NCBI RefSeq assembly: GCF_023167545.1
Contig: NZ_AP014647.1
Location: forward strand, 1,798,001 to 1,862,000
Direction of reading: 5' to 3'
Source: Streptococcus constellatus subsp. constellatus
GTDB taxonomy: Bacteria; Bacillota; Bacilli; Lactobacillales; Streptococcaceae
DNA: 64,000 nt
In this document: in pieces, positions 2,998 through 62,621 of the stretch
How positions within the stretch are numbered: position 1 is the first letter of the stretch
Layout of the letters: each line of letters opens with the position of its first letter
Program-made: the position numbers and the translations under genes
The notes under the pieces: generated by a model
The model's input: only the letters and a program-made list of their open reading frames with translations
Database searches by the model: none
What the model was told of the DNA's origin: nothing

Positions 2998-3627
2998 CTA
3001 ATATGACTGTTCTAATGAGCCACTAATCTGTGTGATATCAACGACCTGATCAACTCGTTCAAAAACATTTGGATCATGCGTCGCAAAAATAACCACAGTG
3101 TCTGATGCAACCAAACTAAGCAACAAATCAATAATTGATTTTCCTGTTTGCTGGTCAAGAGCACCTGTCGGCTCATCTGCCAAAATGACTTTCGCTTTTT
3201 TTAATAATAATCGCGCAATTGAAACCCGTTGGGCTTGACCACCGGAAAGCTCATAAATTTTGGACTTCATGACAGACTCATTTAGTCCAACCTGTTTTAA
3301 AGCTATCAGAATTTCTGATTTACCCGCCAATAGTTTCAAGTTGTCGAAAACTGTTTCTTCTTCCACCAAAGCATAATTTTGAAAGACATAGCCCAGATAA
3401 TGTTTAAAATAATCTTTTTCCTTCATTTTCCAAATATCTTGCTTATTGAGCAAAATTCTGCCTTGATCTGGTTTTTCTAAACGAGCAATTGCATTTAACA
3501 ATGTTGTCTTTCCAGAACCCGAAAGCCCAACTAAAGCATAGGATTGATTCCTTTCAAAATGTAGATTGACATGGCTGTAGACGGTTTTTCGTCCATATTT
3601 TTTCGCTAAATTTTCTATCTCAATCAT
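2998..3627 (-). CDS. ABC transporter ATP-binding protein of the lactococcin-972-type locus
   Basis: This cytoplasmic ATPase probably powers the neighbouring DUF1430 membrane protein in bacteriocin export or self-immunity. The 209 residues hold a complete ABC domain: Walker A GLSGSGKTT near residue 34, Q-loop FQNYALV, signature LSGGQAQRV near residue 127, Walker B KVILADEPTGALD and the switch His in FATHD. Its ATG start overlaps the last 4 nt of the upstream gene, so the two are translationally coupled. The order bacteriocin - DUF1430 protein - ATPase matches known lactococcin 972 clusters. The MacB/LolD-like core alone does not fix the substrate; the context does. Confidence 0.9.
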   Translation of the reverse strand: MIEIENLAKKYGRKTVYSHVNLHFERNQSYALVGLSGSGKTTLLNAIARLEKPDQGRILLNKQDIWKMKEKDYFKHYLGYVFQNYALVEEETVFDNLKLLAGKSEILIALKQVGLNESVMKSKIYELSGGQAQRVSIARLLLKKAKVILADEPTGALDQQTGKSIIDLLLSLVASDTVVIFATHDPNVFERVDQVVDITQISGSLEQSY

Positions 3628-5633
3628 AGTATTTCAAAATCTCCTTTTATAATCTGAACACGATTTTTTCTGACGTTCATTAAAGCAAAGTAAGACATAG
3701 CAGTTATCTCAAACGCATAAAGAACTCCTACTAAACCAACTACTAGGAAACTACCTTTCATCACTAAAATTGTCAATGCACTGACGAATAAAATGCCTGC
3801 TATCAATGGCAGTAAAGACTGAAAAATTTCTAGATAGCTACTTGCTCCTAACAAACTTTGTAAAGAAATCTTTTTCGCTTTTTGTTTCATGCGAGTGGTA
3901 ATATATTCATAAATAATAAAGAACTGCGCCAAGACTAACATCAGTAGAGCAGTAATCGTCCCTGTCAGTTGGCTAACAATGTTTTCACGAGCTAATAATA
4001 GTTGCTCTGAAATATTTGTCATACTAGAAAAATGAGTCAAACCAGCTTGGCTAATCTTTTCTTTTATCCATTTCTGTTTAAAAGCTCCTTTTGTTGCAAG
4101 AACTGTATAATAGTTATCAAAAGCTGCATCTGCTGGTAGATTGTGAAAATTGATTTGCACTAAAATCTTGTTCACTACTTCTTGTTTAGCCAATAATTCA
4201 TCTGGACCGTCTTTATGGTTAAAAAGAAAAGTCTTCTGTCCATCAGGAATTTCTACGATTTGAAAATCCTCAGCTTTTAAAGCTGAATATCGGAAGTGCT
4301 CATAGTTAATTATCTTACGAATATTGTCTATGTGAGCCATCTGACTTTTTGGAATATAGATAACACCTAAGCTTTCTTTCGGTGCTTGCCCATACTTATT
4401 TTGAGGATACAATTTTTTATTTTTATTCATCAATCCTGTATTGACATAGAACAATGTTTCTGCAATTTTACTATCGACACCATTTCTTACCAGCTCCTGC
4501 TTAAATTCTTCCGGAGCGTGCTTAGTTCGATCTGGGCTAAGGCTAGATTGCTCTGAATAAAGCCAGCCATCTGTCCCAAAAGATTGAATCAATTGTCTAT
4601 GCTTCGCAGCATTTTCTTTTATAAATGTTGAATCAATTTGATGATTTTCATCAGTATGAGTAGCGGTATTTTCAAACCAAGTGATCGCAGCATAATCTTG
4701 AGCTATTTTCCAATTTCCCAAAACAGCTATTTCTTGGGCAGATTTGGAAATGGTTTTAACACTTTCCGATGCAGTCACGCCAAAGATAAAGCAAGATAGC
4801 AAAATTCCAAAAAGCCAGATATAAAGTACTAACGGATTTGATTTTTTATTCTTCAAGACAGTTACAGCTCCCATAAGGCGAACATTTAAAGCAAAAAGTA
4901 GATTGACAAGTAAGCTAATAACCATCAAAATAAAGAGATTGAGAAATAGTAATAAGCTAAACGTCTTAACATAAACATTTACCATACTACCTTGCCATAA
5001 AACAAAAAGTAGCCACACAAGGATTCCTGTGCTAATCAAAATAGTAGAATCCAACCAAAGTGAACGCCGAAATTCTCTATCAAAAAGCCCCAGACTGCGC
5101 TGAATCATAGCTTTTTTAACATAAAGCATTTTGACTGCAAAAAGAAGCACAGCAAAAACAAAAAATAAAGTCCAAACTGCCAGAGAGCGTAAATTCATAA
5201 ATAGAAAGTTGATTGGCACTAAGTACCACGGAAGGTCTGCTCCTGTGTAAGTCAAGCCAAATCGCTGCAATTCTGTTTTTAATTCTGTCGGTAGCGCCTT
5301 ACTAGAATAATACATACCAGTCGCGGTACTTGCTGCCAAGACTCCTCGATCCGTGATATAAGATTGATTTTTGCGCTGTATCTTTCCAAAAACAAATGTA
5401 GCTTGCTGACCACTTTTATCTAAAAAAGGACGATAAATAGTTAATTGCTTTTTATCTGCAATTTCCTGTATTTTATCAAAAATTTGGTTTTTATCAACCT
5501 CACTAGAGCCCGTCAATGAAAAAGCTGCCTGCGCAGGATAAGGAATGTCGTTCCCAAACTCTTTAACAGCACCTAAAGATAAAAATGATATTAGTAAGAC
5601 AAATAAAGAAAGAACGGTTAGCCGCCACTTCAT
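3624..5633 (-). CDS. DUF1430 bacteriocin-associated integral membrane protein
   Basis: A large membrane protein of about 669 residues, related to the bacteriocin-associated proteins of about seven TM segments (DUF1430 family) found with lactococcin-972-like peptides. It has an N-terminal hydrophobic anchor, a large extracytoplasmic region, TM clusters near residues 160-290, a second polar domain, and three or four C-terminal TM segments with a FtsX/MacB-like layout. I place the start at the internal Met (5633), which follows AAAGGAG, rather than a longer upstream extension without a ribosome binding site. It is coupled to the ATPase gene by a 4-nt overlap. Likely role: export or immunity together with that ATPase; which of the two is not resolvable from sequence. 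Confidence 0.85.
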   Translation of the reverse strand: MKWRLTVLSLFVLLISFLSLGAVKEFGNDIPYPAQAAFSLTGSSEVDKNQIFDKIQEIADKKQLTIYRPFLDKSGQQATFVFGKIQRKNQSYITDRGVLAASTATGMYYSSKALPTELKTELQRFGLTYTGADLPWYLVPINFLFMNLRSLAVWTLFFVFAVLLFAVKMLYVKKAMIQRSLGLFDREFRRSLWLDSTILISTGILVWLLFVLWQGSMVNVYVKTFSLLLFLNLFILMVISLLVNLLFALNVRLMGAVTVLKNKKSNPLVLYIWLFGILLSCFIFGVTASESVKTISKSAQEIAVLGNWKIAQDYAAITWFENTATHTDENHQIDSTFIKENAAKHRQLIQSFGTDGWLYSEQSSLSPDRTKHAPEEFKQELVRNGVDSKIAETLFYVNTGLMNKNKKLYPQNKYGQAPKESLGVIYIPKSQMAHIDNIRKIINYEHFRYSALKAEDFQIVEIPDGQKTFLFNHKDGPDELLAKQEVVNKILVQINFHNLPADAAFDNYYTVLATKGAFKQKWIKEKISQAGLTHFSSMTNISEQLLLARENIVSQLTGTITALLMLVLAQFFIIYEYITTRMKQKAKKISLQSLLGASSYLEIFQSLLPLIAGILFVSALTILVMKGSFLVVGLVGVLYAFEITAMSYFALMNVRKNRVQIIKGDFEIL

Positions 5634-5660
5634 ACAAGACTCCTTTACAACAAAAAACAA

Positions 5661-5730: not shown

Positions 5731-6069
5731 TTAGAATTCATACCAAGAATAAAATGACTTTGCTTGAATCCATGACCAATGTTTTGTAGCTCCTGAATTT
5801 GCCCAGCCATAATTTGATTTGGCATAGTCTTTTACATTTCCCCATATATCGGTCACAGATGAGCCGCTTCCAAGACGGATTGGTGCTTCTAAATAATAAT
5901 GCGAGTAGGCCCATCCATTTGATGTTACGCCATAATTCCAAGTATCCTTATAAGTAGGATGAGGATGCTGGGTATCTGCCGAGACCCCACCTCCAGCCAA
6001 AGGACTAAGAGTAAGGGCAAGAGCACCAATAAGTGCTAATTTCGTAAATTTATTTGAACTATTTGACAT
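5731..6069 (-). CDS. Lactococcin 972 family bacteriocin precursor
   Basis: A secreted 112-residue precursor. Residues 1-31 form a Sec signal peptide (hydrophobic core LALIGALALTLSPLAGG, cleavage likely after VSA). The mature part of about 80 residues is rich in Trp, Tyr, Ser and Gly with no Cys (WNYGVTSNGWAYSHYYLE; WANSGATKHWSWIQ; ending SFYSWYEF), which resembles lactococcin 972, a lipid-II-targeting septum inhibitor. The start follows AAAGGAGG. Its neighbours, the DUF1430 membrane protein and ABC ATPase, are the usual partners of this family. The short hydrophobic peptide gene at 6200-6265 lies upstream on the same strand and the Rgg regulator is divergent, so expression is probably pheromone controlled. 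Confidence 0.88.
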   Translation of the reverse strand: MSNSSNKFTKLALIGALALTLSPLAGGGVSADTQHPHPTYKDTWNYGVTSNGWAYSHYYLEAPIRLGSGSSVTDIWGNVKDYAKSNYGWANSGATKHWSWIQAKSFYSWYEF

Positions 6070-6199: not shown

Positions 6200-6265
6200 T
6201 TAAAATGGCCAGATACTTGGATACAATAATAAAAGTATCATCAATTGTAAACAAGCTGTTCTCAT
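6200..6265 (-). CDS. Short hydrophobic peptide (SHP-like pheromone precursor), 21 residues
   Basis: A 21-codon gene starting MRTACLQLMI and ending LLLLYPSIWPF, stop TAA. The start has a near-perfect ribosome binding site (GGAGG, 6 nt spacing). It is divergent from an rgg gene, which is the defining layout of Rgg/SHP quorum-sensing pairs: a tiny hydrophobic precursor whose C-terminal residues are exported, trimmed, re-imported by the oligopeptide permease and bound by Rgg. Unlike most SHPs it has no acidic residue before the C-terminal segment; it ends in an aromatic and proline-rich YPSIWPF. The gene is below usual calling limits. I infer pheromone function from size, hydrophobicity, ribosome binding site and position. 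Confidence 0.7.
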   Translation of the reverse strand: MRTACLQLMILLLLYPSIWPF

Positions 6266-6382: not shown

Positions 6383-7237
6383 ATGAGGTATGATTTCGGA
6401 GCTGTTTATAAAGAAATTCGCAAATCAAAAGGTTTATCGCAAGCAGATGTATGCGGAGAGGTTCTATCCCGAACAACTCTGGCTAAATTTGAAAGCGGGA
6501 AGGCTACTCCCAAATACGAAAATATGGAATTTTTGCTACGTCAAATCAATATGAGTTTTGAAGAGTTTGAGTATATCTGTCACGTCTATAACCCTAGCCC
6601 CAGAAGTATCATATTTAACAAAGCTTTAAATATAAGCTCTATTAGTGGCACACAAGATTTAGAAGAGCTACAAGAACTCTGTGAAAGATATCTTCGTAAG
6701 GAATACGATTTACCAATTAAGCATATTCATAATTTATTAAAACTTTTCATTTCTATTAGAAAAAACGGAGTTAAAACATTAACAGATGAAACAATCTCTA
6801 TCACCAAGCAGTTTTGGAATTATTTAGAAAAAGAAGATACTTGGTATAAAAATGATTTTAGGATTCTAGTATCTATTTTACATCATTTTTCGATGGATAC
6901 CCTACATTTGATTACTGATAAAATTTTGGAAAATTTAGAGAAATATAAAGACTATAAAAATTTTCAAAACGATCGCTTAACTCTTCTCTCAAATTTAGCA
7001 GGAATCTATTTGCACCATAATGAATTTCACCAATGTGAAAAAATTGTCACACTAGCTTTAGAGACTGCACAAAAGTTAAAGAGGTATGATGCTTTAGCTT
7101 TATGTAATATTCGATTAGGAATTTGTCAAAATAATAATAAATTAATCAAAAAAGGATTGGTCTTATTAGAAATCACAGATGAACTGGATTTATTACAAGA
7201 TACGAAACACGAAATCAACCATTTCCACAGGTCTTAG
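6383..7237 (+). CDS. Rgg-family transcriptional regulator (bacteriocin locus)
   Basis: A 284-residue Rgg/GadR/MutR-type regulator. Residues 5-65 form an XRE-type helix-turn-helix (IRKSKGLSQADVCGEVLSRT, then LAKFESGKATPKYENMEFLL). The rest is the all-helical peptide-binding repeat domain (TPR-like), ending near residue 280. It is transcribed divergently from the short hydrophobic peptide gene and the lactococcin-972-like operon, which it most likely controls by binding the imported peptide. A TATAAT at 6305-6310 may be its -10 element. The protein is a clear paralogue of the regulator at 61719-62621: the N-termini share the same framework, including the Cys-Gly in the turn helix. Confidence 0.92.
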   Translation: MRYDFGAVYKEIRKSKGLSQADVCGEVLSRTTLAKFESGKATPKYENMEFLLRQINMSFEEFEYICHVYNPSPRSIIFNKALNISSISGTQDLEELQELCERYLRKEYDLPIKHIHNLLKLFISIRKNGVKTLTDETISITKQFWNYLEKEDTWYKNDFRILVSILHHFSMDTLHLITDKILENLEKYKDYKNFQNDRLTLLSNLAGIYLHHNEFHQCEKIVTLALETAQKLKRYDALALCNIRLGICQNNNKLIKKGLVLLEITDELDLLQDTKHEINHFHRS

Positions 7238-59983: not shown

Positions 59984-60202
59984 GTCACTTAAAGCGACCG
60001 TTTCAATGACTTCTCCTTTTTCCGTCAGCGCGGCGGATAACCTCAACTACTTTTCGTTTGCTTCGTCCGCCCAGCGGAAAGTTTCCCTTACTTTTGGTTT
60101 ACTCCGTCCGCCCGGCGGACAGCATGAATCAAAAGAAGTTTATCTCGTCCGCCGGGCGGACGGAGTGAACAACAATCAGTTTGCCTTGTCAGCTCCGCGG
60201 AC
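59984..60202. repeat. Array of six 15-bp GTC...GAC palindromes at 41-bp period
   Basis: Units start at 59984, 60024, 60065, 60106, 60147 and 60188 (steps 40, 41, 41, 41, 41). The two central units are perfect palindromes, GTCCGCCCGGCGGAC and GTCCGCCGGGCGGAC, which are each other's reverse complement. Flanking units are degenerate: GTCACTTAAAGCGAC, GTCAGCGCGGCGGAT, GTCCGCCCAGCGGAA and GTCAGCTCCGCGGAC. The 26-bp intervals are AT-rich; the first three resemble one another (ACTTTT core), the others do not. It fills the leader of the DUF6261-like gene. Units of very high G+C in an AT-rich genome can form strong hairpins or serve as operators. Too short and palindromic for CRISPR. Confidence 0.85.
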
Positions 60203-60263
60203 GAAATAAAATTGTCTCGCCTCACCTCATTAGCCAACGAAATCCAGAAAAATCATCTCATTT

Positions 60264-60317: not shown

Positions 60318-60836
60318 TCAATATTTCATTATTATATTAAACCATTCTGGTAAAGTCGTCTGCTCTTCATTCAAGACTTCAAAACCATTGTCTTTTTTTA
60401 AATAAATCAGCGTAGGTACACCAGTCACATTATATTTTTCCATAGCTTTCTTTATTTGAGAATTCTTATGAGAATCTTCTGTATTTAAGTAATAAATTTT
60501 AAAAGGCGTATGATACAAGTCTGATGTTTCTTTCAAGACCGGAAGAAATTCTCTACAAAACGGGCACGTCTCACGACCAAAATAGAGCAAATTTCCCTTT
60601 GTTAATTTATTGTTTAAAACATTTTCTGCATTCGTCTCTTGAAAGCTCTTTACAATTTCTTTGTATAATTTTGTCAATTTTAAATCGTGTTCTACCTCAT
60701 TTTCACTTGTTGAAACCTGAGAAACACTTGAAACTGTAGAGCTTTCAGAAGCTTGTGATGAAGAGGTGCATGCAGAGAGGAAAAAGAGAGTTGTGCAAAT
60801 AATAATGAAGTATAGACTCATGCGAATACATTTCAT
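60318..60836 (-). CDS. Thioredoxin-fold lipoprotein, bacteriocin-associated disulfide oxidoreductase
   Basis: A 172-residue exported lipoprotein. The lipobox is LSAC (Cys about residue 23), followed by a Ser-rich linker. From residue 78 there is a thioredoxin fold with the active site CPFC in LLYFGRETCPFCREFLPVLK and the cis-Pro loop GVPTLIYL. Similar proteins accompany disulfide-containing bacteriocins (PedC/BrcD type). Here the neighbouring secreted peptide has four Cys, so this protein probably forms its disulfide bonds or protects the producer. The start follows AAGGAG. Confidence 0.85.
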   Translation of the reverse strand: MKCIRMSLYFIIICTTLFFLSACTSSSQASESSTVSSVSQVSTSENEVEHDLKLTKLYKEIVKSFQETNAENVLNNKLTKGNLLYFGRETCPFCREFLPVLKETSDLYHTPFKIYYLNTEDSHKNSQIKKAMEKYNVTGVPTLIYLKKDNGFEVLNEEQTTLPEWFNIIMKY

Positions 60837-61032
60837 AAAAATTCTCCTTAATCTTTTGGGATTTTTTTATTATTGTCGTTAAAAGCAGAATTATATATGC
60901 TCCCAAAAATAGAATATCACCTATCACATCATCATGTGAGAAATATAAAAAGTACAGTATCAATACAATTGTATAAAAATAGAAATGATATTTCTTATAA
61001 AAGTATTTGTCAAAAGAATATTTTTTCTTCAT
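60745..61032 (-). CDS. Two-TM protein, candidate bacteriocin immunity protein
   Basis: A 95-residue frame starting MKKKYSFDKYFYKKYHFYFY after AAAGGAG. TM1 (FYFYTIVLILYFLYF) and TM2 (ILFLGAYIILLLTTII) are joined by a short acidic loop (SHDDVIGD) and followed by KKSQKIKENFYE, a layout usual for small immunity proteins. The frame then runs on and overlaps the thioredoxin gene by 92 nt, which is odd. In another frame a TAA (60848-60850) stands directly before the thioredoxin ribosome binding site, so a single-base deletion upstream could have removed the native stop. Position in a bacteriocin operon supports immunity; no family was recognised. Confidence 0.6.
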   Translation of the reverse strand: MKKKYSFDKYFYKKYHFYFYTIVLILYFLYFSHDDVIGDILFLGAYIILLLTTIIKKSQKIKENFYEMYSHESILHYYLHNSLFPLCMHLFITSF

Positions 61033-61076
61033 TATTTTCACTCCTTTTTTAACACAGAAATAATAAGTCTATTTCG

Positions 61077-61412
61077 CTATGCTTTTAAGCATTGATATAC
61101 TACTGGTCCATACGCCATAAGCAGAGAATACCATGTGGTTGAAAAGCTAAATACACCAAGCCCTAAAGCCCATAAACAATCTCTTTGCGCTGGTGTAAGA
61201 GTAGCCGAAGCACTCCCATCTTTCAAACAATATCTTTTGTAAGTATAGCTATTCTTGTTCATATCTCCACATACACCTCGATCCCGGAAAGGAACTACTT
61301 CTTCATATTTCATACTATTCGCATAAATAACAGAAGTTGAGGACGGTATAACTGTTGCACCGATCATAAAAGCTGCTGCAATCGTAAGGAAAATTTTATA
61401 TAATTTTTTCAT
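61077..61412 (-). CDS. Secreted four-cysteine peptide, candidate bacteriocin precursor
   Basis: A 111-residue precursor. Residues 1-32 form a Sec signal peptide (FLTIAAAFMIGATVIP, cleavage likely at YANS). The mature part of about 78 residues has exactly four Cys: GVCGDMNKNSYTYKRYCLKD in the N-terminal half, RDCLWALGLGVFSF in the middle, and VVYQCLKA at the end. The C-terminal 35 residues are hydrophobic. Two disulfides are possible. With a two-TM protein and a thioredoxin-fold lipoprotein downstream and an Rgg/short-peptide pair upstream, a bacteriocin is the best reading. I know no exact family match. Confidence 0.7.
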   Translation of the reverse strand: MKKLYKIFLTIAAAFMIGATVIPSSTSVIYANSMKYEEVVPFRDRGVCGDMNKNSYTYKRYCLKDGSASATLTPAQRDCLWALGLGVFSFSTTWYSLLMAYGPVVYQCLKA

Positions 61413-61470: not shown

Positions 61471-61488
61471 TCAACACTTATAGTACAT
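61471..61488 (-). other. Five-codon leader frame with strong ribosome binding site
   Basis: On the minus strand GGGAGGAG is followed 8 nt later by ATG TAC TAT AAG TGT TGA (MYYKC). It lies between the short hydrophobic peptide gene and the bacteriocin gene. It may be a translated leader or a relic. Confidence 0.3.
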
Positions 61489-61522
61489 TGGTTTCACTCC
61501 TCCCTTTCTTTAAATTGTAGCA

Positions 61523-61609
61523 CTATATACCAAATGGTGGCCACCATGGAAATGTACCAATTATTGCAGTAATAAAAGATAGTATTGAGAAAAATCTAAA
61601 TTTTTTCAT
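61523..61609 (-). CDS. Short hydrophobic peptide (SHP-like pheromone precursor), 28 residues
   Basis: A 28-codon gene starting MKKFRFFSILSFITAIIG and ending GTFPWWPPFGI, stop TAG, with AAGGAG upstream (spacing about 10). It has a basic N-terminus, a hydrophobic core and a Trp/Pro/Phe-rich C-terminus, as expected of precursors cut to a short pheromone. The double Trp recalls the XIP peptides of ComR systems and the Trp-rich peptides of some other Rgg systems. It is divergent from the rgg gene at 61719 and upstream of the four-Cys bacteriocin gene. Pheromone function is inferred from position and composition. Confidence 0.75.
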   Translation of the reverse strand: MKKFRFFSILSFITAIIGTFPWWPPFGI

Positions 61610-61623
61610 ATATTTTCATCTCC

Positions 61624-61651
61624 TTGTCTTTATTTATCCTTATGATATAAT
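61624..61651 (+). promoter_or_regulatory. Candidate promoter of the second rgg gene
   Basis: TTGTCT and TATAAT (61646-61651) stand 16 bp apart on the plus strand, overlapping the short peptide's ribosome binding site on the other strand. Confidence 0.5.
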
Positions 61652-61661
61652 ATTATGAAAA

Positions 61662-61678
61662 GGCATTCACAAAATGCC
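61662..61678. promoter_or_regulatory. Inverted repeat GGCATT-N5-AATGCC, candidate Rgg operator
   Basis: A perfect 6-bp dyad between the divergent rgg and short-peptide genes, 53 bp before the peptide start. Its position suits an Rgg binding site upstream of the peptide promoter. Confidence 0.5.
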
Positions 61679-61718
61679 CACTATTTTCACATTTCATATT
61701 TAACACAAGGAGTCGCCT

Positions 61719-62621
61719 ATGCATTGGGATATTGGCACAGTTTACAAGACGATTCGAAAATCAAAGGGAATCACCCAGCAAGAGATTTGCGGAGATTGGA
61801 TTTCGCGCTCCAATCTTTCCAAGTTTGAAAGCAACCAATCCGTTCCCAGCTATGAAACCATGGAATTTCTGCTCCACCAGATTGACATGAGCTTTGGGGA
61901 ATTTGAATATATTTGTGATTACTATAAACCGCGGACAAGACAAGTGATTATCAATCAGATGTCCAATCATTTATCTACTTCAGATAGTACAGAATTGATT
62001 AAAATTGCTCAGCTTTGTAAAGAACACTTAAAAAAAGTTGAACATGATCTTCCTATCCAGCACATACTAGAGACCTTAAATATTATCATAGAAATCCGAA
62101 AAAATAGTTTTAGTGACCACTCTAGAGAATTAGCTGAAGCCATGTGGTCTGATCTTAAAAGGCGTGATATTTGGTACAAAAACGACTTTAATATGCTAGG
62201 TGTGATTCTCTTTATTTTTCCTATTGAGACGCTTCAGGATATTACAGAAAAAATCTTAATTAACCTTGAAAAATACAAGGATTACAAAAGCATCAAAAAT
62301 GCCCAAGTTTCCTTGCTGCTCAACCTTTCTACTATCTATCTCTGTAATCAATTATTAGATGACTGCGAACACATCTCCGCTATCGCCTTAGACTTAGCCA
62401 AACAACTCAAGCGCTATGATTTTCTCGGCTTTGCTCAAGTCCGTCTTGGAATCTGTCAAGCAAATGATGAACTAACACGGAAAGGGCTTAGTCTGTTGGA
62501 ATTAACCGAAGAAACAAAATTGTTAGAAGATTTACAAGAAGAAGTCAAACAATATCGTGCTTCCTATTTCTCTCATATTTCACATGGAATTTCAACCACT
62601 TCAATAGAAACGGAGAAGTAA
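61719..62621 (+). CDS. Rgg-family transcriptional regulator (four-Cys bacteriocin locus)
   Basis: A 300-residue Rgg-type regulator and paralogue of the one at 6383-7237. The N-terminal HTH is IRKSKGITQQEICGDWISRS, followed by LSKFESNQSVPSYETMEFLL. The C-terminal helical repeat domain has the same landmarks (RRDIWYKNDFNMLGVILF; LINLEKYKDYKSIKNAQVSL; ALDLAKQLKRYDFLGFAQVR; LGICQANDELTRKGLSLLEL). It is divergent from the short peptide gene. The stop TAA immediately precedes the ATG of the HAD gene, so the two are translationally coupled. The start follows AAGGAG. Confidence 0.92.
   Translation: MHWDIGTVYKTIRKSKGITQQEICGDWISRSNLSKFESNQSVPSYETMEFLLHQIDMSFGEFEYICDYYKPRTRQVIINQMSNHLSTSDSTELIKIAQLCKEHLKKVEHDLPIQHILETLNIIIEIRKNSFSDHSRELAEAMWSDLKRRDIWYKNDFNMLGVILFIFPIETLQDITEKILINLEKYKDYKSIKNAQVSLLLNLSTIYLCNQLLDDCEHISAIALDLAKQLKRYDFLGFAQVRLGICQANDELTRKGLSLLELTEETKLLEDLQEEVKQYRASYFSHISHGISTTSIETEK

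Follow-up and report, generated by a model that had tools for sequence, protein, structure and literature searches.

The window, by which we mean the whole 64,000-nucleotide stretch of the Streptococcus constellatus subsp. constellatus genome analysed here, carries a small gene divergent to rgg and, on the same strand as that gene, a bacteriocin-like operon:

61719..62621, + strand: rgg, encoding a predicted RtgR-like cytoplasmic pheromone receptor and regulator (300 aa)
61638..61695, - strand: putative operator and promoter of the pheromone operon, TGTGAAAATAGTGGGCA, 27 nt, TATCAT (61642-61647)
61662..61678, no strand assigned: perfect inverted repeat GGCATT-TTGTG-AATGCC, seen directly, between the operator and the -10
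61523..61609, - strand: putative pheromone precursor gene MKKFRFFSILSFITAIIGTFPWWPPFGI (28 codons, ATG start)
61471..61488, - strand: mini-ORF MYYKC, with Shine-Dalgarno (SD) sequence AAGAAAGGGAGGAGTGAAACC at about 61490-61510 (duplex with the 16S tail, -15.9 kcal/mol)
61077..61412, - strand: Sec-type precursor of a four-Cys bacteriocin-like peptide (111 aa)
60745..61041, - strand: small hydrophobic or membrane protein (98-aa frame), candidate immunity protein
60318..60836, - strand: lipoprotein with a thioredoxin-like domain (CPFC; 172 aa), candidate disulfide-forming partner of the bacteriocin

The original prediction had placed a 28-codon frame divergent to rgg and upstream of a four-Cys secreted peptide, and we recover it at exactly 61523..61609(-) and in that arrangement. 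The gene has a ribosome-binding site (AAGGAGAT), is separated from the divergent rgg by 109 nt (start to start), and is present as a single copy in its own genome (1.90 Mb, one contig). Its divergently encoded product has the basic N-terminus and hydrophobic core expected of the Rgg/WxW group.

Conservation of the divergent gene

We surveyed related Rggs at E <= 1e-20, finding them in 92 of the 197 sampled genomes of the genus, in 114 matching stretches. About 97 of these stretches were examined (J4206 standing for its genome) and SK54 was added, giving 98 rgg loci, each with 300 nt or more of upstream sequence; six upstream regions were identical copies and were dropped, leaving 92 distinct regions, among which related yet non-identical loci were kept, such that locus counts are not counts of independent events. 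A divergent ORF qualified if it encoded 18-42 aa, had an SD and Lys or Arg near the start, and was hydrophobic, with Trp counted in the last 14 residues. Divergent ORFs with at least two Trp in this tail occur in 32 of the 92 regions, whereas 1840 dinucleotide shuffles gave 4 and the rgg strand of the same 92 regions gave none. The rest hold a one-Trp ORF (7), a Trp-less ORF (11) or no qualifying ORF (42), the last two classes indicating that pairing of an Rgg with a Trp peptide is not universal; the filter was also too strict, missing at least one Trp peptide (at L138).

Coding is supported for the family by pS exceeding pN in six of seven hand-chosen pairs of peptide genes, including the anginosus-group homologues of genomes G113 and G172 (pS 0.71, pN 0.29); the S. 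intermedius SK54 copy is DNA-identical over 192 nt and so gives no coding test. From these comparisons of sequence, we regard it as confirmed that the divergent small ORF is a real gene. The S. intermedius SK54 and S. anginosus J4206 loci have flanks matching those of the window locus. A search of 59 genomes, unsorted by nearness, gave a match in the window's own genome alone, and peptide matches at three further loci (L073-L075) were discarded as unrelated, lying inside a membrane protein of 190 to 214 aa.

Placement of the regulator

In profile searches the window Rgg scores 27.2 bits for HTH_3 (above cut-off) and 20.3 bits for Rgg_C (below the cut-off of 27). We inferred a tree of 105 Rggs, leaving out L105 and L166 (more than one stop) and L093 and L167 (identical proteins). 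The window Rgg falls on the 94-row side of a branch (95/87) whose other side holds nine Rgg_C-profile Rggs, two of them adjoining SHP-like peptides (tails IIIIVVG and MDIIIVGG), and two ComR-like proteins (from G101 and G056). As the rows were selected for their resemblance to the window Rgg, this split from the outgroup is expected, and the informative part is the recovery, on the window's side, of three published systems: L123 (peptide ending AIIFPWGWPI, as RtgS does), L141 (with almost the Rgg1518 peptide) and L113 (with almost the SSA_2251 peptide) (published peptides in PMC7018657 and PMC13361665; here and below, publications are cited from partial texts). On this phylogeny the window Rgg belongs with the Rggs of RtgR, Rgg1518 and SSA_2251 type and not with the SHP-Rggs, and with three published systems in the same part of the tree the pheromone class is a known one. 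The original prediction's view of the context as Rgg rather than ComR agrees with this placement, which separates the regulator's group from the compared SHP-Rggs and ComR-like proteins.

An AlphaFold2 model of the window Rgg from a three-sequence input (mean pLDDT 82, pTM 0.64) has HTH helices at about residues 5-69 and TPR-like helices at about 73-288, the predicted combination of an HTH with a TPR-like helical domain being that of RRNPP receptors. The solved relatives of the model by fold are Rgg2, Rgg3, Rgg144 and NrpR, with ComR lower. Compared with solved ComR, the window Rgg matches short HTH chains alone (E 0.0045), whereas the ComR-like protein of G101 matches solved ComR chains at E 1.6e-53.

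A shared operator upstream of the pheromone gene

Alignment of upstream regions (87 distinct, 79 kept) revealed a pattern at fixed spacing, with consensus GTGAAaAaAgttaACA ... TATCATA. An operator model derived from 76 sites (15 effective) in other groups, with no anginosus-group loci, scores the window site at 31.5, second among approximately 127,900 window positions and a value reached by 0 of 1000 shuffles of the window region. The top score (35.0) belongs to the promoter of the window's other Rgg peptide, which was in the training set, and the third is 16.0. These scores indicate that the pheromone promoter carries the shared RtgR-type operator at its fixed spacing. The inverted repeat between operator and -10 is partly kept in G113, where one pair is altered on both arms. 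No terminator-like sites were found on the minus strand between 60000 and 62700, in keeping with the circuit proposed below. A second promoter-like match (61441/61413, 9 of 12) precedes the bacteriocin gene, so the single transcript is only a proposed one.

The Trp-rich tail

Across the last 16 residues of the 36 distinct Trp-containing peptides, the commonest of the four motifs counted is PW (26 peptides), followed by WxW (23), PW-x-[WP] (22) and WW (14); four peptides have none of PW, WxW and WW. A Pro-Trp core therefore describes the set slightly better than WxW does, and far better than WW. The window tail, FPWWPPFGI, contains no WxW, and we accordingly call the peptide a variant instead of filing it as a WxW member. 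There is no D or E anywhere in it, and thus not the Asp/Glu that is conserved in classical SHPs (PMC7018657).

The distinct class of Trp-rich pheromones that had been suggested for this peptide does exist but is not new, having been proposed in 2020 as the ‘Rgg/WxW’ group (PMC7018657), of which the Rgg1518 case was tested experimentally (PMC9426450). The accompanying suggestion that the WW pair recalls XIP fares less well. We rejected WW as a hallmark of the class, given its presence in just 14 of the 36 peptides and its absence from the anginosus-group homologues (tails MPWIPIGLGQY in G113 and APWLPTELM in G172); the second Trp takes a variable position behind the Pro-Trp core, so the XIP likeness is probably incidental. 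Beyond the window peptide, WWPPF turns up in one other (G131, L076), on a different branch of the Rgg tree. Within the literature searched, a scope outside which bioRxiv and most subscription papers fell, we did not find the window peptide described.

Beside RtgR-like Rggs at six other loci (L125, L127, L133, L136, L137 and L140) lies a conserved divergent Trp-less peptide, MFKNKELFRVVMIFVIGIILILMTPVLFKVVMELFSK and near-copies, possibly another signal or a membrane peptide.

Cargo of the operon

The four-Cys precursor, whose predicted mature part has about 78 residues, has no family in Pfam or NCBIfam. Matches to it occur in six of 335 genomes of the family (the window's own among them), although in G172 over the signal peptide alone, which there leads another mature part that is EntV-family-like (36.8 bits, below the cut-off of 130). 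The four Cys align in SK54, G113, G101 and G056 (the SK54 row standing for the window's precursor, to which the copy in G245, the genome that holds the SK54 locus, is 99% identical). The small hydrophobic frame downstream is just 64 aa long in S. intermedius SK54, which makes its true extent unsure. The lipoprotein matches Thioredoxin_2 (E 2.4e-8, above cut-off) and scores 47.6 bits for PedC_BrcD (TIGR01295, cut-off 120), so we call it no more than a thioredoxin-like lipoprotein.

The precursor and the thioredoxin lipoprotein also occur together in G101 and G056, each time behind a ComR-like regulator, and short frames (MLGVIVTVLSLVFLVD and MVVTSIITILSLIFLVE, read by eye) lie between regulator and cassette. 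Streptococcin B, a lactococcin 972-like bacteriocin, likewise lies behind a ComR-type regulator in pneumococcus (PMC11796350, available text). Together these loci suggest that bacteriocin modules pass from one cytoplasmic pheromone circuit to another. Several further loci of the group hold small secreted proteins with ABC transporter genes, among the matches listed. The gap after the thioredoxin gene (60030..60210) contains repeated GC-rich palindromic units (GTCCGCCGGGCGGAC-like), and similar units with a different core (GTCGACCGGGTCGA) are found in S. anginosus J4206 (L062).

Proposed circuit and its closest relatives

We consider it likely that the 28-mer is the pheromone of the divergent RtgR-like Rgg and activates the bacteriocin-like operon. 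The precursor would be exported and processed to a short peptide from its C-terminus, around FPWWPPFGI, and an Eep/RseP-type protease, present in the same genome, counts towards this reading. By analogy with the synthetic peptides of RtgS and Rio84 (PMC7018657, PMC9426450), the active part would lie within the C-terminal 8-12 residues. Once re-imported, by Ami if the PptAB export and Ami uptake that mark the Rgg/WxW group apply here, the trimmed peptide would be bound in the TPR-like domain of Rgg, and the complex would bind the GTGA-N9-GCA operator upstream of the pheromone -10 and activate transcription. One transcript may carry the pheromone, the mini-ORF, the four-Cys precursor, the small membrane protein (for immunity) and the thioredoxin-like lipoprotein (for disulfide formation). 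Of the earlier claim that the pheromone controls bacteriocins, what stands is that the peptide very probably serves the divergent Rgg as its pheromone and adjoins a bacteriocin-like operon; the control itself we infer.

Bench support exists for two relatives, RtgR/RtgS (PMC7018657) and Rgg1518/Rio84 (PMC9426450). RtgR/RtgS of Streptococcus pneumoniae resembles the window system in its divergent short hydrophobic peptide without the SHP Asp/Glu, its related regulator, its FPW core (RtgS ends AIIFPWGWPI) and its regulation of exported antimicrobial-type peptides, as we would expect for the window (PMC7018657). Unlike RtgS, the window tail FPWWPPFGI has no WxW, and where RtgR/RtgS has GG peptides and a peptidase transporter in the available text, the window's cargo comprises a four-Cys peptide of Sec type and a thioredoxin lipoprotein. 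Rgg1518/Rio84, also of S. pneumoniae, shares the regulator group, a Trp-rich pheromone and a tiny ORF (rio83) between pheromone and cargo, but its cargo is a predicted ABC transporter and its pheromone tail is different (PMC9426450). The predicted SSA_2251 system of S. sanguinis has a tail that also starts FPWW, but this tail, WWWLWW, has WxW, unlike that of the window (PMC7018657). Small secreted cargo is a further likeness to SSA_2251, accompanied by transporter genes in the related loci L089, L091 and L113 (among the matches listed). We take the secreted cargo of these three loci to be Lcn972-like. ComRS (XIP), whose target is sigX/comX, is similar in that a short peptide, in some cases with Trp, is paired with a cytoplasmic receptor of the RRNPP type, and it can drive bacteriocins; it differs in that the peptide gene follows comR and that ComR-like proteins are far off in the tree.

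Recombination and alternative explanations

Between the window and SK54, differences number 2/320 in the upstream nucleotides, 6/222 in rgg codons 1-74, 207/606 in codons 75-276 and 1/72 in codons 277-300, with pheromone gene and spacer identical over 192 nt. Against G113 the pattern is reversed, with 88/300 upstream followed by 20/222, 9/606 and 12/71 in the same rgg blocks. Given that the HTH of the model extends to residue 69 and the TPR-like array spans 73-288, the exchanged block is the ligand-binding domain, and we conclude from these alignments that this domain has been swapped by recombination within the anginosus group. Only five loci were compared, so it is the exchange that they show and not which pheromone fits which receptor. 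Both SK54 and G113 have an early stop in their rgg copies, and S. anginosus J4206 has lost the pheromone frame and operon. With SK54 combining the same peptide with a different Rgg ligand domain, in an rgg with an early stop, the peptide does not simply follow the receptor, and strict covariation of pheromone and receptor was set aside.

This mosaic rgg, the stops in the SK54 and G113 copies and the loss of the operon in J4206 would all suit a decayed or orphaned circuit, with pheromone and rgg mismatched by recombination and the operon silent in the window strain; that strain, however, has intact frames and a well-kept operator and RBS, and we regard decay as unlikely. Less probable again is that the 28-mer is no signal but a small membrane peptide, either toxic or leaderless (like a toxin or a bacteriocin), that only happens to lie in the operon: it is hydrophobic with a basic N-terminus and has bacteriocin-like neighbours, but its position, operator and Trp-rich tail are common to loci with a tested pheromone (PMC7018657, PMC9426450), and the Trp peptide is kept in other loci despite different cargo (among the matches listed). 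A ComRS-type circuit, in which the WW peptide would serve as ComS and the regulator as a ComR for bacteriocins or competence, might be suggested by a double Trp like that of some XIPs and by the same cassette behind ComR-like regulators. It is scarcely credible when the peptide gene is divergent from and not downstream of its regulator, the G101 and G056 ComR-like proteins are distant in the tree, solved ComR is matched closely by the G101 protein but by just the HTH of the window Rgg, and the window promoter has an RtgR-type operator.

A mini-ORF behind the pheromone gene

Within the proposed pheromone operon, the mini-ORF is the most novel observation and the part most worth following. At many loci a purine-rich block runs into an ATG after the pheromone stop. 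We called a mini-ORF where an SD-preceded ATG lies at most 60 nt after this stop and opens a frame of at most 20 codons, and found one in 23 of 38 distinct loci, window included (compared with 553 of 3800 shuffles), with lengths of 2-14 codons and nine of the 23 comprising two codons (e.g. Met-Asp-stop). By these criteria it is absent from 15 loci, including L123 (RtgS) and L141 (Rgg1518).

In duplex energy with the 16S tail, the 23 mini-ORFs average -17.9, against -12.2 for 38 pheromones and -9.2 for 34 cargo starts; an SD was required for the mini-ORF call, which biases its mean, and the excess over cargo starts, which were subject to the same SD rule, is the fairer comparison. The SD is exceptionally strong in 21 of the 23 and weak in L083 (-6.5) and L096 (-8.4). 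For 41 window genes the mean is -9.4 (best in-frame start; strongest -14.4), and among 2240 window ATGs the MYYKC start is one of six with a duplex at or below -15.0. The 16S tail sequence itself has four occurrences in the window's own genome.

Two 16-mer patterns were picked after the loci had been seen, many of them close relatives, so that the following counts describe specificity and not independent origin: the loose form, GTGA[AG][AT]CC[AG]ATG[GT]A[CT]T, is present in 12 of 38 loci, window included, and in 0 of 3800 shuffles, and the exact form, GTGAGTCCRATGGAYT, which the window copy does not match, was found 20 times across 19 of the 279 genus genomes, against none for the reversed-pattern control. 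Fifteen of these 20 lie immediately behind a Trp pheromone gene; among the remaining five, four are within about 3 kb of an RtgR-like gene or part of one, and for the fifth there is none in the 14 kb examined. Copies of the element at L226, L227, L228 and L229 have no preceding Trp pheromone gene, and some precede genes for small secreted proteins. A hairpin reading (AGTCC-AAT-GGACT), made by eye, was dropped because the window copy cannot form it.

In the same place beside Rgg1518, rio83 is translated, and its authors suggest a negative regulator of unclear extent; further sORFs lie near Rgg0112 and Rgg0144 (PMC9426450, available text). A likely rio83 relative, the frame MKYHLLE at L138, has a less extreme duplex (-11.8). 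In the literature searched (same scope as above), we did not find the mini-ORF as a shared or general element, and rio83 was the only such frame found with a described effect. With somewhat less than even confidence, we suggest that a conserved regulatory mini-ORF, its SD matching nearly the whole 16S tail, acts in many Rgg/Trp-pheromone operons as a ribosome trap or translational brake that would part pheromone from cargo output in a self-limiting way, rio83 and the window's MYYKC being instances of a genus-wide device.

Further loci and significance

The window contains another RtgR-like locus:

6383..7237, + strand: rgg
6200..6265, - strand: divergent peptide MRTACLQLMILLLLYPSIWPF
5731..6069, - strand: 112-aa precursor
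3624..5660, - strand: TIGR01654-like membrane protein (45.4 bits, below the cut-off of 189.35)
2998..3627, - strand: ABC ATPase

The original prediction termed the 28-codon gene the second of its kind, and the implied first SHP-like gene is probably that at 6200..6265(-). The 112-aa cargo has no family in Pfam or NCBIfam; we take it to be Lcn972-like, the sole support being the neighbouring TIGR01654-like protein. Elsewhere in the same genome (C1:466807-467652, L160) is a third RtgR-like rgg with divergent MKRLAASLVFFTVLIFSFLSSDGWIHWWKL, a small secreted protein and ABC genes. In G155 (L166), an Rgg accompanies an NFPWWPWGP peptide, and the first cargo protein is, by its motif, presumably a secreted phospholipase A2.

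These results extend the little-studied Trp-pheromone group of Rggs to the anginosus group, suggest that a Pro-Trp core unites its peptides better than WxW does, and tie several loci of the group to small secreted bacteriocin-like cargo. They also indicate that recombination swaps the ligand domain of the receptor while the pheromone stays, and point to a shared mini-ORF with an extreme ribosome-binding site.
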